Shown one piece after another: positions 1 to 23,911 of a stretch of DNA of 24,794 nt. The notes under the pieces are model-generated. The model worked only from the letters and a program-made list of their open reading frames with translations, searched no databases and was not told the origin of the DNA. The DNA lies in the IMG/VR virus record IMGVR_UViG_3300009184_000204, positions 1 through 24,794 of that record, one strand, 5' to 3'. Origin of the DNA: a virus. Each line of letters opens with the position of its first letter. Position 1 is the stretch's first letter. The translations under genes and the position numbers were made by a program.

Positions 1-462
1 ACTATTTGTAGGTGTAATTGTGTTGGTTGGTGTGATTGTGTTTGTAGGCGTTAAAGTCCTTGTTGGTGTAATGGTTTGAGTTGGAGTTATTGTGTTAGTT
101 GGAGTTATGGTGTTGGTAGGGGTAATGGTATTTGTTGGAGTTATGGTGTTGGTAGGGGTAATTGTGTTAGTAGGAGTAATTGTTGGTGTCTTTGTCTTAG
201 TAGGTGTAACTGTATTTGTTGGAGTAACCGTATTAGTAGGTGTAATAGTAGGAGTCTTTGTGTTAGTAGGTGTAACTGTATTTGTTGGAGTAACCGTATT
301 AGTAGGTGTAATAGTAGGAGTCTTTGTGTTAGTAGGTGTAACTGTTGGGGTCAATGTATTAGTAGGGGTAACTGTCCTTGTTGGAGTAGGTGTTTTAGTT
401 TGAGTTCTAGTTACAGTTGGTGTTGGTGTAATTGTCCTTGTTGGTGTTGGGGATGGTGATGG
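1..462 (-). repeat. Pro-Thr stalk A (low-complexity coding repeat)
   Basis: This stretch encodes residues 421-574 of the leftmost protein, built almost only from TPT, NT, IT, VT, KT and RT units. The DNA is G/T-rich on the plus strand and A/C-rich on the coding strand. It is an extended, flexible or rod-like linker by composition and continues past the window edge. Long antisense frames here are composition artefacts. Confidence 0.92.
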
Positions 463-1722
463 GCATATTGTTGACCCAGTTATTGTACCAACTGAATTTG
501 TTGAATAACAATACCCATTTATACTAAAATTTCTACTTGCACCCCAACCACTAGTGTTATTATTGATGCAAGATTGGAAATCAACATAATATGTTTGACC
601 AATAGATCCATCAAATAAGGTTGTTTTACCACATATTTGTGTATTTGGCTCTTCCCTACAAACATCATAACAACTTAATGTACCTACTGAATCAACATAA
701 ACATCAAAGCAATTACACCCATTTGGGTCAGGAATCAATGAATTTCCCCTAAAATATATCTTATTATTGTTATTTATTAATCTAAAATTTGTGTTGCTAA
801 ATGTGGTATAAATATGATAATAATCTTGTGGTATGGTAAATCCAGAATATTCAACTGTCAATGATGCATATAACATATTCATATTAACTGGAACCAATGC
901 TGTTGGATCACTATACTCATTAACCCCTATGTTGCTAACAAGATTTCTATTTGTGTTCATATTTGGTATTACCCAAGTATACCAAGAATACCCTATTGTT
1001 GTGTATGCTGGAACTTCATGCGTCTTGAATAGATATGCTTGAATTAAATTTCCATATTCATCAAAGCCCCCACTATTTTGACTTATCTTTGCTGTTCTTA
1101 TTTGTGGAGCATTTACCCCCCAACCTGAGAAGGATAAATATCTATTAAGTTGGTTGTTGAATGTGGTTGCACTTATGGATGGACCAATGCCATTTGAAAA
1201 TCCCCTAAATAAGCTGCCACCACTTGACATCCAACTATTGAATTGTACATTTAAATTAACTGGTTCAATAAATAGATATGCATCAAATTGCTCTGGTGTT
1301 GTTGGGGTCACAGTTGGGGTTATGGTTGGAGTTGGGGTTTTTGTTCTTGTTGGGGTATTTGTGGGTGTTATGGTTCTTGTTGGAGTTACAGATGGCGTCT
1401 TTGTTCTTGTTGGTGTTATAGATATGGTTGGTGTTATAGATGGTGTTATCGATATGCTTGGGGTTATGGTTGGTGTTGGGGTTGGGGTTGTGCATTGTAT
1501 TTGGATGGTTACCCCTATTAAGAATTGAGTTCTTGTTATATTGTCATATATTGGTGTGCTATTTGTTGAATCCAGATAAATATCAAATGGTCCTTTTGAA
1601 TGAGATGATGGATTTAACTGCAAGAAATACCTTGAACAAGCTGTAACACCAGTTATTTCATTCTCTATTCTGTTTTCACATATAGGATCAGTATTTATTA
1701 CAATTAATTTATATGTTGCCAT
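1..1722 (-). CDS. Multi-domain virion fibre/adhesin candidate with Pro-Thr stalks (partial, 3' end beyond left edge)
   Basis: The frame starts at an ATG directly abutting the TAA of the upstream gene and stays open for all 574 codons to position 1, so the C terminus is missing. Order seen: a 77-residue N-terminal domain; a Pro-Thr stalk (residues 78-143); a globular, Asn-, Tyr- and Cys-containing domain of about 277 residues (144-420); and a second Pro-Thr stalk from residue 421 to the edge. I do not recognise the globular domain. The N-terminal domain contains a 'PFDIYLDS' segment resembling the 'TPLSIYVSD' segment of the neighbouring 183-residue protein, so the two may share a fold. Position at the end of a baseplate/tail operon and the globule-stalk-globule layout suggest a fibre or adhesin that projects from the virion; this is inference. 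No signal peptide or membrane segment is visible. Confidence 0.8.
199..343 (-). repeat. 66-bp tandem repeat inside Pro-Thr stalk A
   Basis: Positions 199-264 and 265-330 are identical 66-bp units (22 codons each), and a third copy begins at 331 and matches for about 13 bases before diverging. The period is a multiple of three, so copy-number change lengthens or shortens the stalk without a frameshift. Perfect identity, against diverged surrounding PT units, points to a recent duplication. Confidence 0.9.
1294..1491 (-). repeat. Pro-Thr stalk B (low-complexity coding repeat)
   Basis: Encodes residues 78-143 of the leftmost protein: TPTPT, SITPS and TRT units linking the N-terminal domain to the globular domain. 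Less regular at the DNA level than stalk A, with no long perfect tandem unit. Confidence 0.88.
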
Positions 1723-2274
1723 TTAACAATCTATTATTTTAAAATAACTGCAAGAGTTAGAATCCTTAATGGTTATCATAATTTGATTTGCCCCATCAAA
1801 TATTATTGGTACGCCTATTGTTGCTGGTAGTGAGTTTGTGTTGACAATTGTTGCAACATAAGTCTCATAATTGCCATTTATATCAGATATGTAAACATTT
1901 AAAGGTGTTGTTCCTGTTAAACTAGTTAAATTAATTGTATTGTTTGTAGTTGGTGGTGGTATATATCCTGGAGTTGCAGATGGTGTTGGAGTTGGGGTTG
2001 GAGTGATTGATGTGATATTGGTAATGCTATATATGATATCACAATTTATATAACAATTATATTTCTTTGATGTTCTGCATCCTGTATTATCTTCTACAAT
2101 TATTGTTACTTGGGGTGCTGAATTAAAAATAATTGGTAACACATATGAAATATCCCCAGCAAGTGGTAAAGTTGTTACCTGACCCAAATATGCCTCATTA
2201 CCCCCAAATGCATCAGATACATAGATACTTAAAGGTGTGTCTCCACTTAAACTTGTAAATATAATATTTGTCAT
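1723..2274 (-). CDS. Small virion protein with duplicated domain and Pro-Thr hinge
   Basis: I place the start at the ATG at 2274, which overlaps the TGA of the upstream gene as ATGA; a TTG three codons earlier is possible but less likely. The 183-residue product holds two copies of one domain, residues 1-74 and 111-183, joined by a Pro-Thr hinge (about 91-105, '[12 protein letters not shown]'). The copies share TSL-x-G-x-TPL-x2-Y-x-SD, an internal PIIF, and a D-x3-C near the end. This looks like a small beta-sandwich repeat related in style to the SprB-like repeats next door, but I cannot assign it to a named family. Stop and the next start abut (TAA then ATG), indicating translational coupling with the leftmost gene. 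A fibre or baseplate decoration is likely; no enzymatic motif is seen. Confidence 0.78.
   Translation of the reverse strand: MTNIIFTSLSGDTPLSIYVSDAFGGNEAYLGQVTTLPLAGDISYVLPIIFNSAPQVTIIVEDNTGCRTSKKYNCYINCDIIYSITNITSITPTPTPTPSATPGYIPPPTTNNTINLTSLTGTTPLNVYISDINGNYETYVATIVNTNSLPATIGVPIIFDGANQIMITIKDSNSCSYFKIIDC
1960..2004 (-). repeat. Short Pro-Thr hinge
   Basis: Encodes about 15 residues of TP repeats between the two homologous domains of the 183-residue protein. It is the shortest of four Pro-Thr tracts in this operon. Confidence 0.8.
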
Positions 2275-4430
2275 ACTGAACAACTAATGTTATATGCTAT
2301 TTTCAAGTTTATTGCCAACACTTGTGATGTTATGCTACTTCCTGGGTCTGCTATGATGTTTATTGTGTTTGTTATCAAATCATAAGATACACTATCAATT
2401 CCTGGTATTGCCCCAACCAAATTCACTATTGAATTCACATAAACTGAATCTGTTGGCACATCTGTTCTTGTATATCCTGTGTAAAATGTGTTTCCACTTG
2501 TTAACCCACTTGGTTGTAATGTATATTCTGTTGTGAAAACTGCTGAATTTAAATTACATTTTGGATTGGTTATGGTTGTTGATCCACTAAACTGCATATT
2601 TACCAAATCACTAAAACCTTCATTCAAGAAATCCAATAATCCAAAATTATTTAAAGGTTGTAATGAAAATGTTTGTGAATCCACAACATATATTTTATAT
2701 GATGTATTCACACTAAAGCAATTTATGGATGCTTCCCTTGTCAATGAACAACTATTTGCATCTTGTATTGTCAAGCTATAATTCCCTGTTGTTAATCCTG
2801 TTGCTGTTATATATTGTGGGTTTCCACTTACATTGCTTGACCATGTGAATGTGAATGGGGGCGTACCCTTTGTTATCAGTGCTGTAATTGATGCATCATT
2901 CCCATTTACACAAGATACCGGATATAATGAGAAATCAATCCCATTGCTTGATGTAACTTGTATGTTTTTCCTTTGCTCACATCCTATTGCATCAATAACC
3001 CTTAATTCATACTGACCCTCTGTTATATTCTGAAATGTAACCCCTGTGAGATTTGTATCAATAATTGATGTGGTATTTAGGTAAAAGTCATATGGGGGTG
3101 TTGCTCCTGTGCTTACATATGCAAAAATACTACCATTGTTTGAACTACAAGTTGTTCCAGTTACTGAATGCCCCAATGTGAATTTATTCTCTGCTATGAT
3201 TGTTACCTCTTTATCATAATAACATCCCGTGGAATCTTGCATATAAGCTGTATATGTTCCACTACCTAAATTGTCAAATATGTAATTTGTTAAGGTTGTA
3301 TTTATGGTTGTGGTGTTTCCACTTGCATCTATTAATCCATATGTGTAAGGTCCCGTACCCCCAACCAAATTAATATTTATAAAACCATTTGATGACGAGC
3401 ATATTGAATTTGTTCCATTTATAGAAACAGATGTTACTCCATTATCATTATCCAAACTAGTGAATATTGCATACTCACACAAAGCAGCATCTTTTACTAA
3501 TATTTCATAAGAGCCAGATGTCAAACCTGTCATTTTAAAACTCCTATCATAAGAAATGTCATAATAACCTGTATTTGCAGAATAATAGAATGGTGTTGTA
3601 CCCCCACTTATTGTTATGTCTAAAGCCCCTGTTGCTGTGAAACAAGTTGGTTGTGTGGGTATTATTTGTATAAGCCCCATTGTGGAAGCATTATTTATCT
3701 CTATTGATTTTGTTTGTGTGCAACCTTGACCATCTGTAACATTTACAGAATATGTTCCAGCAGATAAATTTGTTTTTGTGTTACCTGATGACCCATCATC
3801 CCAGAAATAAGTATATGGACCAGGATTTGTTTGCCCTGTTATATATATCTTTCCTGTGTTACCACTAAAGCAAGGGGAAGCATCAATTGTATAATACCCA
3901 TAATCAAAAGTTGTTGATGACTTGATTATAAAACTTTCTGTTGTTGCTGAACAACCCCCAATATCTTCAATACGCAAATAATATGTATCAGCACTTAAAT
4001 TTTCAAAAATAATAAATTCTGAATTAAAAACATTATTGGAAATCAAATTTCCCCCATAATTATACAAATAACAATCTGTTGTTGAAAAATAAGAAGTTGT
4101 GGTTGCAGTCACTGAACCATTACTTTCCCCACATAATGTGTTGTTGGTTGACACAATTGAACCACAACATCCACTTGAAACAGGAATATTAATGAAAAAT
4201 TCCAAATTTTCACTTAAAGTAGAATCATTGACCCTAACACCATATGTTGTAGCAGATAACCCAATTTGGTATATTGGGAATTCATCTGTGGTTATAATTG
4301 ACCCCAAAGGTGGTTCAACCCAATCAATGGTATATGGGGGTGTTCCCCCAGTTAATGATAATGATATTGCACCAGCACTTGTGCTTGAACAATCCCCAGT
4401 TACGCTTAAAAAATAATCAAATGCTGCCAT
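2271..4430 (-). CDS. SprB-repeat virion adhesin (seven repeats)
   Basis: The 719-residue product is a chain of seven diverged repeats, roughly residues 9-83, 88-170, 182-247, 256-328, 333-414, 419-494 and 500-571. Each follows the SprB-repeat plan: an early Cys, then 'NG' or 'TG', 'GG-x-xPYTY', an 'L-x-aGtY' turn and a closing 'DxxGC'. Repeat 3 is the clearest ('LSAGTYSVNVTDGQGC'). A distinct domain without the repeat pattern follows (572-719), beginning near 'YKIYVVDSQTF'. SprB is the cell-surface gliding adhesin of Flavobacterium, and the repeat is typical of Bacteroidota surface proteins. In a phage tail operon, with no signal peptide, it is best read as a fibre or spike that contacts the host surface. 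The start ATG lies 4 nt after the upstream stop; the end overlaps the next gene by 4 nt. Repeat family is confident; role is inferred. Confidence 0.85.
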   Translation of the reverse strand: MAAFDYFLSVTGDCSSTSAGAISLSLTGGTPPYTIDWVEPPLGSIITTDEFPIYQIGLSATTYGVRVNDSTLSENLEFFINIPVSSGCCGSIVSTNNTLCGESNGSVTATTTSYFSTTDCYLYNYGGNLISNNVFNSEFIIFENLSADTYYLRIEDIGGCSATTESFIIKSSTTFDYGYYTIDASPCFSGNTGKIYITGQTNPGPYTYFWDDGSSGNTKTNLSAGTYSVNVTDGQGCTQTKSIEINNASTMGLIQIIPTQPTCFTATGALDITISGGTTPFYYSANTGYYDISYDRSFKMTGLTSGSYEILVKDAALCEYAIFTSLDNDNGVTSVSINGTNSICSSSNGFININLVGGTGPYTYGLIDASGNTTTINTTLTNYIFDNLGSGTYTAYMQDSTGCYYDKEVTIIAENKFTLGHSVTGTTCSSNNGSIFAYVSTGATPPYDFYLNTTSIIDTNLTGVTFQNITEGQYELRVIDAIGCEQRKNIQVTSSNGIDFSLYPVSCVNGNDASITALITKGTPPFTFTWSSNVSGNPQYITATGLTTGNYSLTIQDANSCSLTREASINCFSVNTSYKIYVVDSQTFSLQPLNNFGLLDFLNEGFSDLVNMQFSGSTTITNPKCNLNSAVFTTEYTLQPSGLTSGNTFYTGYTRTDVPTDSVYVNSIVNLVGAIPGIDSVSYDLITNTINIIADPGSSITSQVLAINLKIAYNISCSV
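2718..4406 (-). repeat. Seven tandem SprB-like protein repeats
   Basis: Seven repeats of about 65-83 residues with the GTPPYT/GtY/DxxGC pattern. They have diverged at the DNA level, so this is an old protein-level array, unlike the near-perfect Pro-Thr duplications at the left edge. Confidence 0.82.
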
Positions 4431-4434
4431 CTTC

Positions 4435-7413
4435 TTAACAAATTATATTTACATCAACCCCAACATTTATTGTCAATAACTTGTTTGTAGCAATCTCATC
4501 AACACAATCCAAATCAACAAACTTAATTACACCATTAATTGGCGTTGTATAATTAATATCATAATAATATAAATTGGATAAGGCATTAATCAATGATGTT
4601 TCCCACAATTGACTTGTTGGAACATCATCATTCCCAATACCATCATAAAACTTCACCTTTGCAACAATGCTTGAATTCAACACAATCTCACTATACCAAC
4701 TGGTCAATACATTAGTACCATCACAACTCAAATCAAATTCTTCAATGGTTGAACCAATTGCATTACCCAAGATAACCTGGAATGAATCTGCTGGGGTTGC
4801 CACCATGCTAATACCATTCTTAATACAAATATCTGAAAATATTGGTGAAGTGATATACTCATCCCCACTTGTAATTGGGATAATAGAACTAATATTAATA
4901 TTAGATATTGTAATTACTTTAGGGTCATTTCCTGTAAACCCACTCATAACCCTCTTATAAACATATTTTTGCTTGTGAAATATGGAATTCTCAAACTTAA
5001 CCCCACCCATCCATAGGGTTGTTGCTGGTATCATCTGTTCAACCAACTTAATCCAATATGGATTTATCCCCTCAACAAATTTAATTAATTTCTCATATGT
5101 ATATTTGTTTGTTGGGATGTTAACTGTATATGGTGCTTCAATATATTTCCAAAAAATGGATTGCAATGTTGGATAACCCCCTGTCTTGCCATCATTAATG
5201 TACATCCTATTACGCACATTAATCATATTCTTTGCAAATGTTGATGCAAACTCAAAAAATGATTTTGATTTTGGTTGTGGGTTTATCTCTGTTGCATCAG
5301 TACCCCCAGTTGTCGCATAAGGGTATGTTAAGCCACTTTGTGGTATTGGGTAATCATACTCATTAGATTGAACCCAAACATCATACAGAAGCCCTTGTGA
5401 GGGGTTTAAGAATATACTAGTGTTTTTAACATTCAATAGCAATCTTTCATCACTCACAAAATAATAAGCATTATAACTTCCATCCACAGAAACCCTCATC
5501 AATGTATTATCCCTTGACCAAGATTTCTTATTATCCACATATTTGGATAAGGTAAAACCCTCATCAATATATGGGAACTTTCTAAAAATATCCAAATATT
5601 TATTGCCATATGTGAATGGCTCAAACTCTGAACCATATTGAACATTTGGTGCAACCCCAGTTCTTGTTGCTATTTCAAGGCTTTTATGCTTTGGGGTTAA
5701 CTGATACCATCCAGCACCCATCTGGAAGAATAGTTGGTCACTATCTTTTGGCTGCTTGGGATAACCTGTCAATCTATCTAAGGGGTAATTTGTTGTGTTA
5801 AAATTAACAATTAATGATGTGGTGTTTTCTGTCATTGCTGTGTATGTTTTACCTGATAAGGTATATGTACTAGCACTAAACACAGGATCATTATCAATAT
5901 AACTCCCTGTCTGTATTTTTGATAAATCTGAATTAAATTTTGTTAGATTTATCTTTTGGTCCGCAATATATATATGCTCATTAAATTCTATCAATGCCTC
6001 TGGTGCGCCAAATAACCTAAGTATAAACTCAATTGAACGCCTTGTACCCTTTGATTTAAACAAGTAAAATGAATTGATGACCAAATTCCTATAAAAAGAA
6101 TAATTCAATTCCAATGGCGTTTGTGACCTATTATATGCAGGATATTTAAAATCACTATTATTCCCAAATATGGATTCTATTAAGGTCTCATCTGTTAAAA
6201 ATTGGAAATCTTCTTGCCAACCTAATGTTTGACCCAAATTCACCAATAATTGGGATGGTATGTCATTCTTTGGGGTATAATTAACTGAATTCATATATGC
6301 CAAAGAATCAATGAACTTTTTAACCTCATCAAAACTTCTGCCATATATTTGAAGCATACTTTCAATCCTCCTATCAAATGTATCAAACTCCTTCAACGAA
6401 TCTGAAACAAAAAACCTTGATATGAGATTTGTTCTTGCATTGTCAAAATAATTTGCAATCACTTGAACATTATCCAAATATGTGGAAAACCTATCACTTA
6501 ATATATCTATATTCCAAACCCCATCCAAAGGAAAGGTTATGTTTGTATCCACTAATGTAAATTGACCATTATCATTTTCTTGTGGCACTTGTAAGGTCAT
6601 TGTATAAATGGGTGAAGATAATGTATTTAACATAAATTGCTCCAACTCATCCAACTGACTCTTCAATAACAAATTATATAGAAAGTCACTTGGTCTAATT
6701 ATAAAAGATTGAACACTATTGCTTGATGATACCCCAAATGGTGAGCCTGAAACTGTAATAGTTAAAGTACCCTCTGTTAAACTTTCAGAAGGATTCAAAA
6801 TAACCAAGGGGTAAACAACCCCATTTATAGATAATACATAATCAACATAATATTTTGTCAAATTCCTATATTCAGAAACAACAATCTCATTTGCCAATAA
6901 ATTAATTGCTGAATTTTGGCTAAAATCAACACCAAAAGGATTGTATATCTTCTCTATGTTAATATCAAAAGTTGTATCATCTGTAATAGCATCATAAACA
7001 ATATTTGTTGCTGTATAACCAGTATTTAAATTATTATCATAAAAATTAACATCAATGGATGCCGGAAAATTATTTATTACATTTGTTATGGACACAGAAA
7101 ACCTTTTGGATAATGACCCATACATAACAAAACCCATAACTTGGGTTATATCATAATTTGGATAAACATCTAATTCCTTTGATATTGCTGTTTTAACATC
7201 CCCAATATCATTAATTCCCAAACTTTCCAAGCTAACTGGTGCATCAAAAATATTTGTCTGAAATTTACGTGGAATAGTTTCAAATATAGATGGCGTGAAT
7301 TCAAATGTACCAAAAGTCAAACCACCCCCTGTCACAAGTTGGTATCCAACCAAGTTGTCAAAAACACTACTAGCACCAGCAAGGGGATTATTCTTAACGT
7401 AAATTATTGGCAT
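4435..7413 (-). CDS. Baseplate wedge candidate with gpI/gp7-like region
   Basis: The 992-residue product contains a stretch (about 340-475) resembling phage tail protein I of the P2 type, with 'YLFKSKGTRRSIEFILRLFG' near residues 450-469: a helix, the K-G-T turn and a second helix. A later segment (about 780-822) has the 'YWIKLVEQMIPAT' and 'GGVKFENSIFHKQKYVYKR' pattern that I associate with the C-terminal part of such proteins. In T4-like phages the gpI-like domain is carried by the large wedge protein gp7, so this is a candidate gp7 counterpart, although it lies about 10 kb from the gp6-like gene. The N-terminal 330 residues are beta-rich and unrecognised, as is the tail after 825. The ATG overlaps the upstream stop by one base (TAATG). 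A structural role is likely; the exact gp7 assignment is moderate. Confidence 0.72.
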   Translation of the reverse strand: MPIIYVKNNPLAGASSVFDNLVGYQLVTGGGLTFGTFEFTPSIFETIPRKFQTNIFDAPVSLESLGINDIGDVKTAISKELDVYPNYDITQVMGFVMYGSLSKRFSVSITNVINNFPASIDVNFYDNNLNTGYTATNIVYDAITDDTTFDINIEKIYNPFGVDFSQNSAINLLANEIVVSEYRNLTKYYVDYVLSINGVVYPLVILNPSESLTEGTLTITVSGSPFGVSSSNSVQSFIIRPSDFLYNLLLKSQLDELEQFMLNTLSSPIYTMTLQVPQENDNGQFTLVDTNITFPLDGVWNIDILSDRFSTYLDNVQVIANYFDNARTNLISRFFVSDSLKEFDTFDRRIESMLQIYGRSFDEVKKFIDSLAYMNSVNYTPKNDIPSQLLVNLGQTLGWQEDFQFLTDETLIESIFGNNSDFKYPAYNRSQTPLELNYSFYRNLVINSFYLFKSKGTRRSIEFILRLFGAPEALIEFNEHIYIADQKINLTKFNSDLSKIQTGSYIDNDPVFSASTYTLSGKTYTAMTENTTSLIVNFNTTNYPLDRLTGYPKQPKDSDQLFFQMGAGWYQLTPKHKSLEIATRTGVAPNVQYGSEFEPFTYGNKYLDIFRKFPYIDEGFTLSKYVDNKKSWSRDNTLMRVSVDGSYNAYYFVSDERLLLNVKNTSIFLNPSQGLLYDVWVQSNEYDYPIPQSGLTYPYATTGGTDATEINPQPKSKSFFEFASTFAKNMINVRNRMYINDGKTGGYPTLQSIFWKYIEAPYTVNIPTNKYTYEKLIKFVEGINPYWIKLVEQMIPATTLWMGGVKFENSIFHKQKYVYKRVMSGFTGNDPKVITISNINISSIIPITSGDEYITSPIFSDICIKNGISMVATPADSFQVILGNAIGSTIEEFDLSCDGTNVLTSWYSEIVLNSSIVAKVKFYDGIGNDDVPTSQLWETSLINALSNLYYYDINYTTPINGVIKFVDLDCVDEIATNKLLTINVGVDVNIIC

Positions 7414-9975: not shown

Positions 9976-10890
9976 TTAATCTTTTATACATCTAACAGAA
10001 TACCCATTATTGGGGTCATCTGGCTGAAAATCCAAATTATCATTATTATATTTCAATTGGACTAATTTTTTGAAATTTAATGAACTCCCTGGTGTTTGCG
10101 TCCAAAATGTTGTGGTTTCACCAAAATAGTTAAAATTGCCACTAAATAATCTTCTCCCTGCTGGATATGCATTAAACCCACTTTGATTTGTTGCCCCATC
10201 ATTTGGACTATTCCACCATACAAATCCGGCTGTTTTCATCTTACCCCCAGCAACACTATTACCACCAAGATATGATCCCAATGTTTGAAATTCTGCTTCT
10301 GTTGGTACATGGTATCCAGTAGGGCATAACCCCCCACCATTTGATGTAGCATACCAATTGTATAGATACCCAAAACAATTATCAATGGCATTATTATATG
10401 CACAATAAGCACCACTATTTATATTTTTCCAAGTTGTGGGATTTGTCACATATGGAATGATTGTTCCATTACTATATCTTGTTGTCCTCAAATTCTCTGT
10501 AAACCAAGTTTGTGTGCCAATTACTGCTGTACCATAATAATTACCATCATAATCCCTAACATAAGTTGCACCAGAACAAGTATTGACACTTGTCAAAACA
10601 CCACTTGAATTAATGTTGAATACTGTCCCCTTTGTACTGCTAACATACCAACCTTCAGCTAATATCTCATAACCAGTATCTGTCCCAATGTAAATAATAT
10701 CATTAATCTCTATTTTCTGTGGGGTTCTTTGTGTTGATACATATAATATATCACAATCCCCCACACAAGTTGTTGGTGTTGTTGTACAAAATATTGAATT
10801 ACAAGCATCACCACTAGTTGCATAGTTATACCAACTACCACAACCACTTGGGGTTGGTGCTGAACCTGCATATATGTTAAAATCTGTCAT
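9976..10890 (-). CDS. FISUMP-domain (C-type-lectin-like) tail protein
   Basis: I choose the ATG at 10890 ('MTDFNIYAG'), 5 nt after the tandem TAA codons that end the upstream gene; a TTG at 10902 would overlap that stop. The 304-residue product has an N-terminal Cys-rich region (about 1-105) and a C-terminal FISUMP domain (about 110-304; Fibrobacter succinogenes major paralogous domain, common in Bacteroidota). Signatures seen: 'VRDYDGNYYGT', 'GTQTWFTENLRT', 'YGYLYNWYA'-type motif (here 'FGYLYNWYAT'), 'LCPTGYHVPTEAEF', 'GFNAYPAGRR' and a final 'GYSVRCIKD'. The family has a C-type-lectin-like fold, used by several phages for receptor binding. It lies directly after a Pro-Thr stalk protein. No signal peptide is visible, consistent with a virion protein. 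Domain call is strong; receptor binding is inferred. Confidence 0.88.
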   Translation of the reverse strand: MTDFNIYAGSAPTPSGCGSWYNYATSGDACNSIFCTTTPTTCVGDCDILYVSTQRTPQKIEINDIIYIGTDTGYEILAEGWYVSSTKGTVFNINSSGVLTSVNTCSGATYVRDYDGNYYGTAVIGTQTWFTENLRTTRYSNGTIIPYVTNPTTWKNINSGAYCAYNNAIDNCFGYLYNWYATSNGGGLCPTGYHVPTEAEFQTLGSYLGGNSVAGGKMKTAGFVWWNSPNDGATNQSGFNAYPAGRRLFSGNFNYFGETTTFWTQTPGSSLNFKKLVQLKYNNDNLDFQPDDPNNGYSVRCIKD

Positions 10891-10895
10891 ATTTA

Positions 10896-11450
10896 TTAAC
10901 AATTTTGATTGAATGCTATTAAATTATTTGATGAATAATACCTTAATTCAGTTGCTGATGGTGTAGGTGTAACAGTTGGTGTCACTGTCTTGGTTGGTGT
11001 CATTGTTGGGGATGCATTAATTGTTCTAGTTGGTGTAGGAGTAATTGTCTTAGTTGGTGTTATAGTTGGTGTAACTGATGCAGTTGGGGTGATAGTTGGG
11101 GTGATAGTTGGTGTAACTGTTTTAGTTGGTGTAATTGTTGGTGTTGCAGTAATTGTTCTGGTTGGTGTAGGAGTAACTGTCTTAGTTGGTGTAGGGGTAA
11201 CTGTGCTGCTCGGTGTAGGTGTTGGTGTAGGTGTTTTTGATACATCAGGAAAACCCTCAATTAACCCCTTATGTGAGAACCTAACAACCTCATAATCAAC
11301 TATTGCATTTATGGAATTATTTAAAACCTCTTCCCCATAACTATTTATGGTATCTTGATGCCCAACATTATCAAAATCCATCTTAATGGGTAAACTAATT
11401 GTTAAGTCATTAAGTTTTGGTTGCAACAATCTATATTTATTCGCAGTCAT
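10896..11450 (-). CDS. Pro-Thr stalk protein with short N-terminal attachment domain
   Basis: The 184-residue product has a compact N-terminal domain (1-72), a Pro-Thr tract (73-167) and a short 17-residue C-terminal tail ending in Cys. This suits a rod that anchors at one end and presents a small tip. The ATG lies inside the end of the upstream gene (14-nt overlap), and tandem TAA codons end it just before the FISUMP gene. The stalk and the FISUMP protein may form one appendage, made as separate chains. I do not recognise the N-terminal domain. Base composition of the tract is strongly strand-skewed, like that of the leftmost gene. Confidence 0.82.
10950..11234 (-). repeat. Pro-Thr stalk C with internal 44-residue duplication
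   Basis: Encodes residues 73-167 of the stalk protein. A 29-residue unit starting at K90 recurs at K134 with only conservative differences (V/I, T/N, T/S, I/M), giving a 44-residue (132-nt) offset. This resembles the larger in-frame duplications of the leftmost gene but is more diverged. Confidence 0.85.
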
Positions 11451-13065: not shown

Positions 13066-16000
13066 TTAAATATTTTGTTTTAAATTTATCCAAAGCTGAA
13101 AACCCTTTCTTAATACCAAAGTAAAAATGAAATGGTGCACCAACTATAAAAGAATCAATCCCACCCCTATCATCTCTATTATATTCATTATTTTTTTGAG
13201 CAAAAATATAACCCCTATCATTATTATAACTCAAATCATAAGATGAATCTGAAAAATAATCTGTTTTTGTATCTCCTGAAGTAAACTTTATTCTTTCAAG
13301 AGATTGATATTTTTTATTCTTAATATCGTTTTGTGCTGTTCCCCAATTGTTTTTTTCTGTTCCAAAAATTGTTCTTGAAGTTTTATCTAAATTCCAACTA
13401 TAAAATGGCACATCTTGTGACTTATTGCCGTAATTTTGTCTAACTAATGCGTTTGTTTCAATCTTCCTAAAATTAACTCTACCTGGTGTTATATGATCCT
13501 TTAACTGTAAATCAGCTTCTGATGATGAATAAAAAACTCCCATATAATTTTTATCTCTACCATTACTACTCTTTTCACTAAAAATGATGGTTGGTGAATT
13601 ATTTGTTTTAAATTCATATAATTCTGGTGAAAATTTAACAACCCCAAATTCAGAATTGATTGACATCAATTGAGCCAAATCTCCATCCACCTTTTTCCCA
13701 GGTTCTCTAAAAAATTCATTTATAATTTTAGTACTTCTCAAAAAATTAGAATCCAATATCCTACTAATAACAAAAAAGTTTACCAAATCAGAATTATCAT
13801 AATGACTTGTAGGATTGATTGAATTCACAACATACCCATAAGTACTAAAATCATTAAATGATGTCTTCTGCCTATTCTTAACTCCCAAATTAACAATTGT
13901 AGTTGGATACATCAAGTTGTAGTTATTTAACTTATTTCCCCTTCTATTAATATCCCCAACAAATTTAGTATCACTATATGGTGAACTTCTGTAATAGAAA
14001 TTATTTGTTTCACTATCATAGTAAACCAAATCATTGCAATATTCTGGAGTTGTCTTACTTGTGTTTGCTCTAAAAGAAAACATAAATAAAGAACCATTTA
14101 CCCAATTATTTGCAAATGTTTCAGATATAACACCTCTACATATACCATAATTTAATTTAAACCTAAAAATCCATTCATTGAATGCAGTAAAATCCACAAC
14201 CAAATCAATTATTGGTCGTCTAACCAACTGATAACATCCATCCTTTATATATGTTTTTTGATATTTTGTTGATGTACATTCCTCATTTATTTTTATAACC
14301 CCTCCAACATTTGAATAACAAGAGTATGGTACCAAATTTTTACATATATTGAATGTACTCAACACACCTGCTGCATTTGGCAATCCAGAAATGTCACTTC
14401 CAGCAAAACTAGCATCAAAAAGTGGATTAGCCTCAAAAGGTAATCCCTCACCCTGTGAAGATTTGGGATATGTGTAAATCCTAAATGCATTATTCTGCTG
14501 TAATATACCAACACTATTATTATTCCAATTATTACCATCCAAACCATCTGAAGTTGGAAGTCTATCTGTCCTCAATACTATTTTTTTATTAGTGCGTAAT
14601 AATTTTTTATCCTTTAATTCAAGATGTGAACTATATGAAAAATATAACATAAGATTAAAACGACCAGAATTAATTGCATTATTTTCTTTCACATCACCAG
14701 AACCCAACATATAAGACCCACCATTAAAGTCTAAGTTTGATATATTATATTTTGAATCAAGTAAATTATTTGGTGTATTTTTTGGGTATGTATTATTACC
14801 ACCTGCACGTTCACCATTTTGTATTAAAAAATTAGATTCTTTTAAAGTTGGTTTAGCACTTATCCAAGTTTTTAAAAATGTAACTACATTAGGATAAAGT
14901 CCTAATTTTGATGTGGGGTTATCTGTTATTGGATTTCTATTATTTAATATACCAGCATAATAAGAAACAGCATCTGTTTTGTAGGGTTCATAATCTTGTC
15001 CAGGTTGGAACACATATGAATCAAATGAAACATCATTTTGGTCTGTTAACGTTTGTATTGTTACATTCTTACTATAAATGCTTCCATTATTGAAATCATT
15101 AAGTTTTTGTATTGGTATATTTAACTTAGTATTAAGGCTCAAACTAATTTGATCCTCATTGTCATAACCAAAAATCTTACCCAAACCATATTTGTTTGTA
15201 TATTCAGGTGAGTAGGGGTCAACACCTCTCTGTATAATTAACACATATTGGTTTTCTATATTTTGAAAATACTCAATTGGGTTATTAATAATTAATTCCT
15301 TACCCTCATCTTTTTGATTCCCCAACTTAACTCTCAATACAGCAGATGATGTCAATACACTAGGTAAATATCCAATTTTTGTCTTATCTGATATATTTAT
15401 ATAGTCATAATATGTCATACCAGTTAATACTTGAAAATATTCCAAATCAGAAGCATAATAAGATGTATTAGTTACACCAGTTAAAACTGGTAATGTATAT
15501 GTTTCTGAAGATTCAATATCTTGCGTTACAGCATATTTTACATTTATAACTTTGTTTTGTTCAGTTATTTTAATAGACCCAGGTTTACCAAAGAAAGTTT
15601 CACCATCTATTGTTGTCCCACTATATTTAAAATTAATATCTTTTGATACACTACTATTAACAAAACTCAATAATTCTCCTGTTTCAATCAAAACATCAGA
15701 TAAAACAACAATTACATTATCATAATGATATTTAAATTTATTCAAATTATTTGCAAATGAAACTTTTATTTTATTTTTATTAGAAAAATAATTATTTCTC
15801 AAATTAAAATAATTAATTCTTTCCCCTATTGGTAATGTTTCACTATAAACTGAAAAATTTTGGGCAAGAACAGATAAACTAAATTTGTCAGATCTTGGCA
15901 TCTTAATGTCTGTTTCCCCTACATTTTTAACTTTTATACCAGATGAATTTGTTGTTCTACCTGCAAGAGCTTGTGTCATTGCAAGTATCATCAAAGGTTT

Positions 16001-18044: not shown

Positions 18045-19880
18045 TTAAATAATAGTCAACCCGTTATTTGTCTTCACCTTAACTGTAATATCTCTTTCTG
18101 GATATCTTATATGATATATCTCATTTGAATCTGCATAGATTGTTTCATCACTTGAAAGTATAATCCTATTTGAGGCTGGGGGATAATACCCCACAACTGG
18201 TTCTGCACCAGAATAATTGCCACCAACCAAATTTTTGAACAAAATATTTGATACAGTAATTACCCCATTCAAATTCTGAATGCTACTCTTTATTTCAGAT
18301 ATATTTATATCTTTGCCCAACTGAATATTCTGTGGTATGAAATAATTATTTATTGTTGAAATTATATTGTTAACAATATCTTTTGATGCAAAACCTGCTG
18401 ATATGGTAACAGCAGCCTCAACACCAACATCTATAACTTTTGCCGATGAAACAACAATATAATCATTTATCATTCTATAATTTGATAAATAATTTGCAAT
18501 ATTGTCTGTTAAAAATATTGAATTATCACTAATCAATTTTCCATTTGCATCATAGGATAAAACAAGCACTTGTATTTTATTATCCACCTCTTGAACTGAC
18601 ACCTTTGCTGGAGCCCCAAATTGTGGTGGCATATTACGTATGATTGATTCATAATCATTTATGGTAACTGCTCTTTTCTGCGCAGCAAAATTAAAGGATA
18701 CAAAATTCCTAACCTCTTCTGTGGTTGGTAATCCAGCTCCCCCAATTGCTGGGAATAAATTATTAACCCTTAATGAATTAATAACAGCCGATTCTTGTGC
18801 TGGATTCCCTGCATTCAATCTAAATGAATTAACCCCAATCTGGTTAATTGTATTTGGTCCAAGATTTGTGTTTAATCCACCCCCAACTCTGTATTGAACA
18901 AATAATGTGCTATTTGGTTTTAATGTTCTACCCAATGAGAAATTATTCAAATAATTCTGTAATGTGGGCAATTGACCTGTTGTTGTGAATTGGTTTAATT
19001 GCTCTAATGCTGTATTAACCCCATTTCCAAATGTCAATTTCTTAAACCCTTCTGATGTGAATTCACTTATGAAACGACTATCTGTTTGAATATACTTTCC
19101 AACCTTTATACCAGCATTGCCTGTGTCCTTTGTTTGGTCAATAATGAAAACCCTATCCTCTGCCAATGAATCAACCTCATACCATTTATTTGCATCCCCA
19201 ATAAAGTCTGATGATGGGGGAATTGTATTTATCTGACCATCTTTTAATAAAACACTTGTAATACCCAAAACATTTTTATCTGGCAAAAATAATTCAAAAA
19301 ATGGTCTAACATCAGATGCTGTTATAACCCTCTTAAATACCTTTGTAACCCCATTGATAACTGGCTCACGTTTTGTTAAAGTATAATTAATAACTATATT
19401 ATTTAACTTATTTGGTATTACTGTCCTATTTGGAAGACCCTGCCCATCATAATCTGATGAAAAATCAATATCATTTATGCTTTCAAAAATGACACCATTA
19501 CCCAAAACTTGTGCACCTCTCTCAAGGACACCAGCATATCTTGCGTCTGCCTTATCGCCAAATGGTGGTACAACTATTGAAAAATCACATAAGGTCAATG
19601 AGGGTCTTTGACCTGGGATTTTTAATCCGTAAGTTCTTGCTATATTATATATGGATGATTTTTGTTGTGCATATTGCAAAACTGTTTCTTGCAAACTCCT
19701 ATCAATATGATAATGCAAATTGTCAGCAACTGCTGCATTCAAATCAAGGAATACTGAAAATATGGAAGCATCATTAAAATCATTAATCAAGTCAGGATAA
19801 TATGTCCTAACATAATTTAATAATTCAGTTCTTATGCTCTGAAAATCCCTAACACCATATGATATTTTTCTATCTGACAT
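18045..19880 (-). CDS. Baseplate wedge protein, gp6-like (baseplate J family)
   Basis: The 611-residue product resembles T4 gp6 (660 residues), the protein that forms the continuous wedge ring of the contractile-tail baseplate and belongs to the baseplate J group. The N terminus has the family pattern: 'YGVRDFQSIRTELLNYVR', 'YYPDLINDFNDAS', 'LDLNAAVADNLHYHIDRSL' and 'TYGLKIPGQRPS'. The middle has 'GGAGLPTTEEVRNFV' followed by 'QKRAVTINDYESIIR' (about 380-415), and the C-terminal part (about 503-548) shows the terminal J-type domain ('LGKDINISEIKSSIQNLNGV'). It follows the gp25-like gene with one base between stop and start, as in T4 where 25 and 6 are adjacent. No membrane segment is present. 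The call is firm at family level. Confidence 0.9.
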   Translation of the reverse strand: MSDRKISYGVRDFQSIRTELLNYVRTYYPDLINDFNDASIFSVFLDLNAAVADNLHYHIDRSLQETVLQYAQQKSSIYNIARTYGLKIPGQRPSLTLCDFSIVVPPFGDKADARYAGVLERGAQVLGNGVIFESINDIDFSSDYDGQGLPNRTVIPNKLNNIVINYTLTKREPVINGVTKVFKRVITASDVRPFFELFLPDKNVLGITSVLLKDGQINTIPPSSDFIGDANKWYEVDSLAEDRVFIIDQTKDTGNAGIKVGKYIQTDSRFISEFTSEGFKKLTFGNGVNTALEQLNQFTTTGQLPTLQNYLNNFSLGRTLKPNSTLFVQYRVGGGLNTNLGPNTINQIGVNSFRLNAGNPAQESAVINSLRVNNLFPAIGGAGLPTTEEVRNFVSFNFAAQKRAVTINDYESIIRNMPPQFGAPAKVSVQEVDNKIQVLVLSYDANGKLISDNSIFLTDNIANYLSNYRMINDYIVVSSAKVIDVGVEAAVTISAGFASKDIVNNIISTINNYFIPQNIQLGKDINISEIKSSIQNLNGVITVSNILFKNLVGGNYSGAEPVVGYYPPASNRIILSSDETIYADSNEIYHIRYPERDITVKVKTNNGLTII

Positions 19881-19881
19881 A

Positions 19882-20358
19882 TTATATATTTATTATGATA
19901 AATTCACTACCTGAAAAACTATTGTTATTTGTAGTATATTCTATTTTTATTTTTGCTGTATTTTGATATGTGCCATTACCAGGCGAACGATAAACCTTAT
20001 CCCTTGATGATAACCCAACATCATCCACACTCAATCTGTTTCCTTGAACCTCCTCATTCTGATCCAAAGGCTCAATAATTATCTTGTTGATAACCAAATT
20101 TGGTATATACTTTGCAACAGAATCCCTAATATCATTTTCAATCACATCAAATGAAACAACATCCAATGGTTCAAATAGAAATTCATATAATCTTGTCCCA
20201 AAATCTGGTAAATAATATCTACTACCTTTTCTTGTTAATAACAAATGCAATAAAGATGCTCTAATCTCATCTGAAGCTGTTTCTGTCATCTTTAAGGCAT
20301 CACCCCTAAGTGATGTATCAAAGGGGAAATCAACACCATATGTAAAACCTTCAGCCAT
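19882..20358 (-). CDS. Baseplate wedge protein, gp25/GPW family
   Basis: The 158-residue product matches the gp25 (GPW) family of small baseplate wedge proteins, which join the sheath-contacting inner baseplate of contractile tails and injection systems. Visible signatures are 'FPFDTSLRGDALKMTE', 'IRASLLHLLLTRKGSRYYLP' and the hallmark 'PDFGTRLYEFLFEPLD' (about 50-65), then an amphipathic helix and a beta strand pair. Length is slightly above T4 gp25 (132 residues); a 15-20 residue tail explains the difference. It is the first gene of the leftward structural operon, and the region upstream contains a candidate late promoter. No Shine-Dalgarno sequence precedes the ATG. Confidence 0.9.
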   Translation of the reverse strand: MAEGFTYGVDFPFDTSLRGDALKMTETASDEIRASLLHLLLTRKGSRYYLPDFGTRLYEFLFEPLDVVSFDVIENDIRDSVAKYIPNLVINKIIIEPLDQNEEVQGNRLSVDDVGLSSRDKVYRSPGNGTYQNTAKIKIEYTTNNNSFSGSEFIIINI

Positions 20359-20442: not shown

Positions 20443-21072
20443 ATGAAAACATTAAGATTAACAGAAGCTGGTTTAACTAAACTAGTTAAAAGAATAATTA
20501 TTGAAGACAAAGGAAGTGAAGGTCTTTTTATGGACTATCACAGTGCTAGTAAAGCATCAACTGGCAAAGAAGGAATGGCTAAGATGCAAAAAATTATGGA
20601 TAAATTAGAAAGAATGAAATCCAAATTTGAGTCATCTAATTTTTCATTTAGTGAAGATGATGTATTGAAACTTGAACTTATTGATGGTTTGTTATATGGG
20701 AGAGATTTTGATAGACTTATTAATACTTACAAAGAAAAAAAGAGTTCTTCAGAAGAATCATATAATAATAATCCTTCTAATTTCTATAATAAAAAACCAT
20801 CCTATTCTGATGTTGAATCTCAATTATTGAATGGTAAATTAGAATGGGATGGTGGTTTGAATTTATATAATTCAAAACTACAACAACTACCAGATAATTT
20901 AAGAATTAATGGTGATTTGGATTTAAGAAATTCCAATATTAAATCCTTACCAGAAGATTTGTTGGTTAATGGAAATATACTATTAAATACAAATAAACTA
21001 GCCCAATTTAGAAAAAGTGGTATTCCGTCTTCTATTAGGATAAAAGGTATATTTGATATTTCAAAAGGGTAA
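20443..21072 (+). CDS. Small phage protein with N-terminal helix module and LRR-like end
   Basis: This is the only plus-strand gene and lies alone between the late operon and nrdA. The 209-residue product starts 'MKTLRLTEAGLTKLVKRI', a short basic helix of the 'LTE-x-x-L-x-x-L/I-V-K-x-I' type that I associate from memory with the start of many Bacteroidota phage proteins, possibly a packaging or targeting tag. A charged, helical middle (about 40-120) follows, with a Ser/Asn-rich linker (about 104-120). The last 75 residues hold leucine-rich-repeat-like units ('LQQLPDNLRINGDLDL', 'IKSLPEDLLVNGNILL'). No membrane segment or catalytic motif is visible. The ATG at 20443 is preceded by an A-run, not a Shine-Dalgarno. 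A strong terminator follows. Function unknown. Confidence 0.78.
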   Translation: MKTLRLTEAGLTKLVKRIIIEDKGSEGLFMDYHSASKASTGKEGMAKMQKIMDKLERMKSKFESSNFSFSEDDVLKLELIDGLLYGRDFDRLINTYKEKKSSSEESYNNNPSNFYNKKPSYSDVESQLLNGKLEWDGGLNLYNSKLQQLPDNLRINGDLDLRNSNIKSLPEDLLVNGNILLNTNKLAQFRKSGIPSSIRIKGIFDISKG

Positions 21073-21157: not shown

Positions 21158-23911
21158 CTAAGATTCACAACTAACACACTCATTAATATTTCTTGCAAAT
21201 GATTGTGCTGAACTCTGGCTAAACTGATAGTAAAGCGTCTTAACCCCCTCTTCATGTGCATATAGATATAATTGATTTATATCCTTTGCTGGAACTGATG
21301 GATGTATCATCAAATTTAATGACTGTGATTGGTCAATGAATTTTTGCCTCTGTGCTGCTTGTAATATTAATTCTTTTGGTGATATTTCAATAAATGATTT
21401 AAATACCTCTTTTGTGGGAAAATCCAAATGCTGAACCGATCCATCTTTCTTCAAAATACTCTCCCAGGTTTCTGGTGTATTTAAACCATACTTATCCAAT
21501 TCAATATCCAAAAATGGATTCTTATAAATTGTTTTTGATTTAGCCAAATCTTTAATAAAATAATTTGATTTGATTGGCTCAATACCCATACTTACTTGTC
21601 CTAGAATAAATGAACTTGACTTGGTTGGGGCAATAGCAATTAATGTTGTATTGGCATAACCCTCTCTTAAACATTTATATCCCTTCTCTTCATATAAATA
21701 TTTTGAGGCCAATTCTGATTTCTCTTTAATTATTTTAAATATTTGATGATTTAATTGCTTTGCCATCAAAGATTCAAATGGTATTAATTTTGATTGGAAT
21801 AATGAATGATATCCTAAAACCCCCAAACCAATTGCTCTGTGTTGTGATGCAAATCTATTAGCCCTTTTCATACCAGCCATTTTACCTGACTTCAATATAA
21901 ATTCATCCATAACTGCATTTAAGAACATAGTATAAACCTCAATTGCGTCAGTCTCAACTATCTCATCCCAATGAAGTAAATTTAATGAACCCAAACAACA
22001 AACAAATGAATTTAATGAATCTGTCGGTAATTGAATTTCTGAACAGTTAAATGTTCTCAAACCATTTGATACAAAAATATGCTCATCATTATCAATAGTT
22101 GGGCAATAAACTGGTTCATTATCTAATTGCTCAATTGCAACAACCTTTGCCCTTTTTTTGGTATTATCTCTATATTCTCTTTCCTCAATAATTATATTTT
22201 TTCTTGACAAGAATTGTGTTTTATTTTCAATAATTAAGGCATCATTTTTACTACCAAAAATTAATCTCCAACAATCTTTAGATGTATAATATTTATGACC
22301 ACCTTTACCATCTGGCATTAAATGTGACCCCTCTTTTCTTAATAAAGCAATTGAACAACTTAATCCTAAATTTGTAAATAAAATTTGTAATTCTTTCAAA
22401 AAATCTTTATTAATATCAGCATATACTATCTGTAATGGTTCCCCTTCAGATACACCTTTAAATGCTGAACCATCTGCATATAACAAACCTTTTAAATAAG
22501 ACCAAATAGTATCCTCATTTGATTCCCAAATCCAAGATGGAACATAACCTTTTTCAAAATTTAATGCTTTTTTCAAAGTTCTTGATGTCAAACGCTTCTT
22601 TTTAACCAGTGATTGATTTATTTTACAATCATGAAATGTTGCTGGATTTCTATTTCTTAATCCAACTTTTTCTTTACCAAAAGCATTTTTAATACCATAT
22701 GTGTCACAATCATACTTATAATGTAATTTATTAAACTTTTCTTGAATATCATCAACTAAGTCAAAATCATTCTCCCAAACATCAATCATTAATTCATTCT
22801 TGGTTTGTGTTCCATCTGATTGATATATCCCCAACAAATAAGCCTCATCTTGCATATCCAAATCACCAAACAAACCTTTTTCTGTTTGCAAAGCAACATA
22901 GTCACCAATTTTTAAATCTTTTGCTTCAACTCTTACAATATCTTTTGTAGTATCATTAAAAACTGGTATTCCATGATTGAATGTCACTTTTTGTGTCATC
23001 CCATTTGAATATGTTATTTTTAGAATTTCAGCATCCTCATTTCTCAATAACATAGGAGATGATTTAACAGCTTCACTCCCACTAAATAAAACTAGTTCCT
23101 CACCACTCTCATGTAACTCTTTTACAGTCAAATATCCTTTTGATGTAACAACCCTTTGATCCTCTGTTAAGCATAAATTTGAAGCAGTTATCTCCATACC
23201 CAACTCTTTGTAGGGGGAATTGTTGTTTGAGTTATCCTTAAACATAATATATGGAAAACCAAACTCATTACGCCTTTGAATAATCTTTGCCCATATCTTT
23301 CTCTTACTTGGATCACCCCCCTTCATATCATTAATCCAATTATCTGTAACAGTAACACCATATTGTAAATTCTGGATTGGATTACCTTCTGTTCCAATAT
23401 CAAGGAATTCCATAATATCATCATGTTCAGCTGGTAACCAAACTGCACATGCACCCCTTCTTGCCTCTGATTGCTTGCAAACATCAACAACTGTGTCATA
23501 CACCCTTGCATAATGAACTGGTCCATCTGCTGTACCACCTGTTGATATTTTAGTTCCCCTACCTCTAATATTACCTAAATAAGCACTTGTGCCACCACCA
23601 TATTTTGACATCATACCAATTTCCCTTCCAGCATTTAAAATGCTATCTAATGTGTCATCAATATTGGATCCATAACAGGATATAGGCAACCCCTTTTCTT
23701 TGCCAAAATTAATCCATACAGGAGTAGAAAGGCTATAAAAACCCCTTGCCATATATTCCTCAAACTTAACAGCAAACCCATCAATTTTTAAATATTCTTC
23801 TGCTTTATTTGCAATATCTTTAATCCTTTGCTCGGGGGTCTCATTTATATACCCCCTTGATAAGAAAAGCCTGCTCTCATCATTTAACCAATAATATTTT
23901 TCTTTATTCAT
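21158..23911 (-). CDS. nrdA: Ribonucleotide reductase class I large subunit, intein-containing
   Basis: Encodes the catalytic subunit that reduces ribonucleotides to deoxyribonucleotides. The precursor is 917 residues; removing a 376-residue intein (247-622) leaves a 541-residue enzyme. By E. coli numbering I see C225 (C79, 'PISCYGSN'), N437 (N245), C439 (C623, the first residue after the intein), E441 (E625), C462 (C638), the radical-transfer pair Y730/Y731 (Y894/Y895, 'KTLYYQ') and a C-terminal CxxC (C912/C915, 'ECVSC'). The phosphate-binding 'PTKSSSFILGQVSMGIEP' is intact. Only 78 residues precede C225, so the usual N-terminal ATP-cone is missing. It follows nrdB by 12 nt, with no Shine-Dalgarno, and shares a terminator with the convergent gene. 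All catalytic residues are present, so the spliced enzyme should be active. Confidence 0.95.
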   Translation of the reverse strand: MNKEKYYWLNDESRLFLSRGYINETPEQRIKDIANKAEEYLKIDGFAVKFEEYMARGFYSLSTPVWINFGKEKGLPISCYGSNIDDTLDSILNAGREIGMMSKYGGGTSAYLGNIRGRGTKISTGGTADGPVHYARVYDTVVDVCKQSEARRGACAVWLPAEHDDIMEFLDIGTEGNPIQNLQYGVTVTDNWINDMKGGDPSKRKIWAKIIQRRNEFGFPYIMFKDNSNNNSPYKELGMEITASNLCLTEDQRVVTSKGYLTVKELHESGEELVLFSGSEAVKSSPMLLRNEDAEILKITYSNGMTQKVTFNHGIPVFNDTTKDIVRVEAKDLKIGDYVALQTEKGLFGDLDMQDEAYLLGIYQSDGTQTKNELMIDVWENDFDLVDDIQEKFNKLHYKYDCDTYGIKNAFGKEKVGLRNRNPATFHDCKINQSLVKKKRLTSRTLKKALNFEKGYVPSWIWESNEDTIWSYLKGLLYADGSAFKGVSEGEPLQIVYADINKDFLKELQILFTNLGLSCSIALLRKEGSHLMPDGKGGHKYYTSKDCWRLIFGSKNDALIIENKTQFLSRKNIIIEEREYRDNTKKRAKVVAIEQLDNEPVYCPTIDNDEHIFVSNGLRTFNCSEIQLPTDSLNSFVCCLGSLNLLHWDEIVETDAIEVYTMFLNAVMDEFILKSGKMAGMKRANRFASQHRAIGLGVLGYHSLFQSKLIPFESLMAKQLNHQIFKIIKEKSELASKYLYEEKGYKCLREGYANTTLIAIAPTKSSSFILGQVSMGIEPIKSNYFIKDLAKSKTIYKNPFLDIELDKYGLNTPETWESILKKDGSVQHLDFPTKEVFKSFIEISPKELILQAAQRQKFIDQSQSLNLMIHPSVPAKDINQLYLYAHEEGVKTLYYQFSQSSAQSFARNINECVSCES
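22046..23173 (-). other. Intein with LAGLIDADG endonuclease in NrdA
   Basis: Encodes residues 247-622. It starts with Cys (C247, 'CLTEDQRVVTSKGYLTV', block A), has block B TxxH (T310, H313), two LAGLIDADG motifs ('YLLGIYQSDG' 358-367 and 'YLKGLLYADG' 472-481, both with the catalytic Asp) and ends 'VSNGLRTFN' before C623. Insertion lies between L246 and the catalytic cysteine, so the enzyme stays inactive until splicing. The penultimate residue is Phe, not the usual His. An active homing endonuclease is likely. Confidence 0.93.

Follow-up and report, generated by a model that had tools for sequence, protein, structure and literature searches.

A seven-repeat SprB-type protein as a putative baseplate arm of uncultured phages probably infecting Bacteroidota

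A 719-aa protein made largely of SprB-type repeats is encoded at 2271–4430 on the minus strand of a 24.8-kb virus record, the whole of which is called the window here, and has orthologues in at least 80 IMG/VR loci. Judged from its sequence, we consider it probable that this protein forms a constitutive arm attached to the baseplate of a large phage with a contractile tail and, probably, a Bacteroidota host, and it is best read as a conserved arm or spacer of seven Ig-like domains that may touch the cell surface. It is called the arm below, although its virion location, tethering and polarity, and any ligand, are what we infer. Related stretches occur on hundreds of uncultured phage contigs, so that the arm appears as a widespread, conserved tail component and may serve as a marker gene for such phages.

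Repeat family and predicted fold

The ORF starts with an ATG codon and matched the Pfam family PF13573 (SprB) with an E-value of 4.2e-25 and 87.5 bits, above the curated Pfam cut-off of 28, which makes the protein a member of this family. The runners-up were BiPBP_C (6e-5, below its cut-off) and then Ig_3 (0.0028). The initial annotation had described seven SprB-like repeats and suggested a profile search as a check; SprB scored far above the other Ig-like families and the repeats were not assigned to an unrelated one. In a SprB scan of the whole window, which gave no match in 14 control genomes, six repeats scored singly and two reached the cut-off. A phage-repeat profile, built from sequences including the window protein itself, counted exactly seven repeats of 61–80 bits each, in agreement with the number first proposed.

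The seven repeats cover aa 8–570. Repeat 1 (aa 8–84, 4179..4409, minus strand as for all that follow) is without the second Cys of the family pair, repeat 2 (aa 85–169, 3924..4178) occurs in two allele classes among close phages, and repeat 3 (aa 170–249, 3684..3923) is canonical and belongs to those most similar to bacterial repeats. They are followed by repeat 4 (aa 250–331, 3438..3683), repeat 5 (aa 332–414, 3189..3437), repeat 6 (aa 415–494, 2949..3188) and repeat 7 (aa 495–570, 2721..2948), the last being the most conserved across phages. The remaining residues, aa 571–719 (2274..2720), form a different, non-repeat C-terminal domain (CTD), which is proposed as a tether. An AlphaFold2 model of the protein (mean pLDDT 75.5) consists of seven beta-sandwich repeats and an alpha/beta CTD.

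The arm and the SprB proteins of Bacteroidota have the family hallmarks in common (C, G, GGT-P-Y-Y, L-aG-Y-V-D-GC and a Cys pair). The two hallmark Cys columns hold Cys in 97% and 84% of phage repeats and in 94% and 97% of bacterial repeats, the hallmark D column is occupied in 99% of both, and the aG-Y-V-tD-GC end is common to the two groups. For six of the seven repeats, both Cys residues are kept in at least 90% of 52 sequences. Proteins folded in the cytoplasm do not usually keep such pairs, and this sequence conservation suggests disulfides in the mature virion. The arm differs from the bacterial SprB proteins in being phage-encoded and short, in having its own CTD of a baseplate-shared type, and in lacking a secretion signal or type IX secretion system (T9SS) domain. 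No T9SS sorting domain reached the cut-off in the 719-aa protein, the sole TIGR04183 match being internal with an E-value of 0.042, and by eye its N-terminus shows no signal-peptide core and no K or R in residues 1–35, so that the proposed lack of a secretion signal stands. The same observations count against the idea that the gene is cargo, secreted or displayed by the infected cell and no part of the virion. Bacterial relatives of the repeat do include surface proteins (PMC7073777), but the position of the gene within a baseplate operon is invariant and we regard this explanation as extremely improbable.

In fold, the array came closest to fragments of GhpA from Aureispira (PDB 9flp, 9flw, 9fly; Foldseek E 3.5e-18). 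Among solved structures, the best matches in a sequence-profile comparison were a phage neck-whisker protein, GhpA, in which 15 stretches matched, and the T5 decoration protein. GhpA is, however, a giant bacterial protein of 5898 aa, and a baseplate-type CTD is known here for the arm alone. Towards Hoc, T5 pb10, neck whiskers (9occ) and other Ig-like virion proteins, the similarity of single repeats ranges from weak to clear; Hoc, T5 pb10 and the neck whiskers are head or neck proteins, whereas the SprB Cys pair and a CTD paralogous to a baseplate protein were seen for the arm.

The baseplate operon and the C-terminal domain

The initial annotation had placed the gene in a tail operon, which is borne out by two genes of the same minus-strand gene run: a gp25-like gene at 19882–20358 (PF04965, E 7e-11) and a Baseplate_J/gp6-like gene at 18045–19880 (PF04865, E 1.6e-7), both with matches to baseplate wedge proteins in PHROGs. 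Based on these two genes, the operon was identified as a T4-like baseplate operon. Always directly upstream of the arm gene lies a gene (4435..7413, minus strand) for a 992-aa protein of baseplate/wedge type, whose residues 244–481 show a relationship to large proteins from the baseplate region of Microcystis phage Mel-JY01 (E 1.3e-8) and Flavobacterium phage immuto (E 1.5e-5). Only 4 nt separate the stop codon of this wedge gene from the ATG of the arm gene, and the stop codon of the arm gene overlaps the next start as ATGA. An identification of the wedge protein as P2 gpI gained subthreshold matches only: the match to Tail_P2_I (E 0.0056) reached 10.8 bits against a cut-off of 20.6, matches were weak and subthreshold in 3 of 12 relatives, and hhalign to P2 gpI itself was not significant. 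The structure model of the wedge protein was poor overall (pLDDT 52) and gave no significant Foldseek match.

The next gene, in a conserved slot (1723..2274, minus strand; likely starting at the ATG at 2274, although listed from a TTG at 2283), codes for a small protein in which two copies of a short module, each giving a module hit, are joined by a TP-rich linker. It is followed by a hypervariable TP-linker protein (1..1722, minus strand), of which 574 aa are present before the gene runs off the contig; its N-terminal ~95 aa are conserved and the rest is variable, and this protein is the more likely host-range protein. Several tail proteins carry TP-rich low-complexity linkers (an 11-residue stretch), including those encoded at 10896–11450 and at 1–1722 (minus strand), and the combination of a conserved N-terminal module, a TP linker and a variable part has the appearance of a system for modular display.

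Homology links the CTD of the arm to the C-terminal part of the wedge protein encoded upstream. Comparison by hhalign gave E-values of 6e-6 and 4e-5, against 0.19 for a reversed control and 4e-4 to 0.85 for other domain pairs; the homology is remote and these E-values come from single comparisons. An HMM of the wedge C-terminus matched the CTD of the window at an E-value of 7e-7 and those of two orthologues at about 1e-4. The paralogous part of the wedge protein is aa 821–992 (about 4438–4953), and the models of the two domains show the same order of helix, two strands, helix and three strands. In a sister lineage (L046–L052), the wedge homologue keeps its first ~770 residues without a CTD-like domain, is extended to 1743–2876 aa, and its gene is not followed directly by a SprB gene. 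This pattern fits an arrangement in which arms attach at the wedge C-terminus, being fused there in the sister lineage and a separate protein in the lineage of the window. Three orthologues of the arm (L126, L138 and L155) are longer, with a TP-rich linker and an extra domain after the CTD; with such extensions the C-terminus evidently can lie exposed, so that the polarity of the arm is uncertain. Separately, VIA-align gave weak matches (Z 3.7–4.4) of the wedge C-terminal domain to T7-like nozzle proteins and to a Bas63 baseplate protein, which are noted as a lead.

The homology of the CTD to the wedge protein also bears on the possibility that the arm is a Hoc-like capsid decoration protein, in which a row of Ig domains would be followed at the C-terminus by a domain that binds the capsid. 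Its architecture resembles that of Hoc, one orthologue matched a Hoc-like PHROG at 2.7e-8, the PHROG matches of the repeats carry head or Hoc-like names, and the repeat profile matched Hoc in the PDB weakly (E 0.064). A capsid role is nevertheless quite unlikely in our judgement, given a CTD shared with a wedge protein and a gene that is always found in the baseplate operon in close linkage to the wedge gene.

Distribution, age and selection

A protein scan with the 719-aa arm returned 7 close viral relatives, a scan with the upstream wedge protein returned 40 loci, and a profile scan with the arm alignment found 321 matching stretches in IMG/VR, the relatives' contigs being up to 326 kb in size. 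Among the best 80 of these 321, the arm gene lay directly behind a ~995-aa wedge gene in all 80, with the junction being an overlap of at most 14 nt or a gap of at most 4 nt; the wedge gene was intact in 77 and split into two ORFs in 3. Nearly all of these 80 arms are 709–743 aa long, and one is truncated at the end of its contig. The breaks of the ~995-aa gene fall at different points in L034, L039/L096, L123 and L127 and may be assembly errors or real.

None of 50,697 phage records represented a cultured phage with the arm protein, and in the same records relatives of the arm, the wedge protein and a 297-aa protein were limited to a stretch of LR756502 and a weak match in a Citrobacter phage. 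LR756502.1 (L084) is a 642-kb uncultured metagenomic phage in which the related stretch shows 28% identity within another protein architecture, a 1675-aa ORF at about 514363–519387 in which the phage-repeat profile recognized 14 SprB-type repeats, including one or two weak ones. By gp6 the nearest cultured phage was Flavobacterium phage immuto (28.8%), in which no SprB repeats were found. Further SprB repeats were observed in other ORFs (about 350–900 aa) of the related phages L043, G005, G013, G035 and G040, those at 15983–17665 of L043 lying within the hypervariable downstream slot.

Each repeat of the window was most like the repeat at the same position in L043 for all seven positions, narrowly so for repeat 5, whereas paralogous repeats within an arm are 10–34% identical. 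This position-by-position orthology indicates that the seven-repeat array is old and fixed, and it extends to phages whose wedge proteins are only ~49% identical, as had been anticipated in the claim that the array was kept for a long time. Recent duplication of repeats within the phage was considered and rejected on the strength of these low paralogue identities and because several repeats are no closer to one another than to bacterial ones; for repeats 1, 2, 5 and 6, the mutual similarity is on average about equal to the similarity to bacterial repeats. Over the whole arm gene dN/dS was 0.09–0.24, which points to purifying selection, with slightly raised values in repeats 2–3 for some phage pairs.

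When phage pairs were binned by wedge identity (means of 93, 80 and 49%), the arm was 86, 64 and 46% identical and the protein in the slot two genes downstream 23, 16 and 13% identical, the latter values being relative to the shorter protein, with some proteins cut by contig ends. In a small bin of nine pairs at 65% wedge identity, the downstream protein was conserved. Since arm divergence tracks that of the baseplate while the proteins further downstream are hypervariable, these data argue against the arm as the main determinant of specificity. Two mosaics were detected among close relatives: in L022, whose wedge protein is about 95% identical to that of the window, arm aa 19–389 are of L015 type, and in L023 the same holds for aa 118–324. 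The log-likelihood gains were 42 and 23 respectively, compared with permutation maxima of 13 and 10. The two mosaics place the exchangeable part within repeats 1–5, with repeats 6–7 and the CTD staying with the backbone.

These results are relevant to whether the arm could itself be the primary receptor-binding (host-range) protein, with repeats 2–4 binding a glycan or protein of the host surface. Its gene has the location typical of a tail-fibre-like gene, repeats 2–4 occur in two allele classes that are exchanged by recombination, and the slight rise of dN/dS in repeats 2–3 would be in keeping with such a role. We nonetheless hold it to be unlikely, as the length and repeat number are fixed, identity follows that of the baseplate, dN/dS stays well below 1 and the truly hypervariable proteins are encoded two genes further on. 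No reverse transcriptase, as part of a diversity-generating retroelement for variable tips, was found in nine related contigs, all of them possibly incomplete.

Host, predicted mechanism and comparison with known systems

A GTDB genome search with a single 53-aa repeat core from phage L126 yielded 209 bacterial relatives. The 79 loci listed are all labelled Bacteroidota, except one ‘uncultured bacterium’, and cover many orders and families, PF13573 relatives spanning Chitinophagales, Crocinitomicaceae, Saprospiraceae, Cyclobacteriaceae and Bacteroidales. SprB repeats have also been reported to be enriched near TANFOR toxin genes (PMC7073777). A pattern scan of GTDB genomes with the arm alignment found no full-length bacterial relative of the arm and thus no sign of recent capture; 80-aa repeats do not allow a decision on an origin by domain-wise capture. 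The phages carrying the arm probably infect Bacteroidota. A scan for the Bacteroidota promoter motif gave 5 occurrences against 2.6 expected, which was not significant.

The initial annotation had derived the repeats from the gliding adhesin SprB. This part has to be revised: PF13573 is a general Ig-like module of Bacteroidota surface proteins, as the GhpA matches illustrate, and from the sequence relationships the SprB name appears to point to such a module and to a Bacteroidota host, not to gliding. Annotation of a viral protein as ‘SprB repeat’ should accordingly not be taken as evidence of gliding biology. It had further been proposed that a virion arm could bind a SprB-type adhesin of the host or its ligand, here taken to be through repeat–repeat mimicry, or compete with it. 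The repeat family is the same as that of the adhesin, and phage resistance in Flavobacterium has been linked to loss of gliding, with receptors proposed in the gliding machinery (PMC7345892). This proposal did not gain support, however, and appears very unlikely to us: the repeats are a generic Bacteroidota module, the genome scan gave no sign of recent capture, and repeats 1, 2, 5 and 6 are on average about as close to bacterial repeats as to each other. A related and similarly improbable variant is that the arm docks on, or is carried by, SprB/GhpA-type fibres of the host through homotypic or ligand-sharing contacts before the hypervariable tips find the final receptor. If true, it would mean that the phage docks on, or rides, moving or extended adhesins ahead of its final receptor.

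For the baseplate-attached arm favoured here, we propose that the paralogous C-terminal domains of arm and wedge protein would pack together and so tether the arm, with the seven Ig repeats projecting outward as a rod. The arm may space or present the hypervariable tip proteins with TP linkers whose genes closely follow its own, and it may itself make weak, generic contact with a glycan or protein coat of the host, host range being more probably decided by the TP-linker proteins. Such a design would keep a conserved arm separate from hypervariable tips, and its predicted attachment point is the domain which the arm has in common with the wedge protein.

Ig-like arrays on phage virions are already known, and the closest described case is that of the crAss-like phages, where tandem BACON repeats occur in tail-associated proteins with a suggested role in host binding (PMC6949934). 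Like the arm, the BACON arrays are tandem repeats of a Bacteroides-associated surface domain encoded beside tail genes. They belong to another domain family and show recurrent domain duplication or transfer, whereas the arm is a fixed, orthologous seven-repeat array encoded, unlike them, in a T4-like baseplate operon. The arm may thus be a second, independent parallel to the crAssphage arrays, assembled from a repeat type that also serves on the surface of Bacteroidota themselves. In the literature searched, we found no description of phage tails with SprB repeats, nor of UniProt entry A0A6J5LD72, a 714-aa ‘SprB repeat’ protein of an uncultured Caudovirales phage (BFVD). This entry is 31% identical to the arm with a near full-length fold match and is probably a member of the arm family already deposited under an automatic name.

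Several other genes of the window are of note. Within the baseplate operon, 9976–10902 (minus strand) encodes a protein of 308 aa that includes a Fib_succ_major domain (E 1.9e-38); in the related contig G018 this domain is also part of a hypervariable downstream protein of 1546 aa. A 209-aa protein whose end is leucine-rich-repeat-like is encoded on the plus strand at 20443–21072, where its gene separates the nrd genes from the baseplate operon. The large subunit of ribonucleotide reductase (21158–23911, minus strand) is interrupted by an intein, in which Pfam recognizes a LAGLIDADG endonuclease domain, and the small-subunit fragment at the contig end (23924–24793) starts, by eye, with an intein-like C-terminal end.
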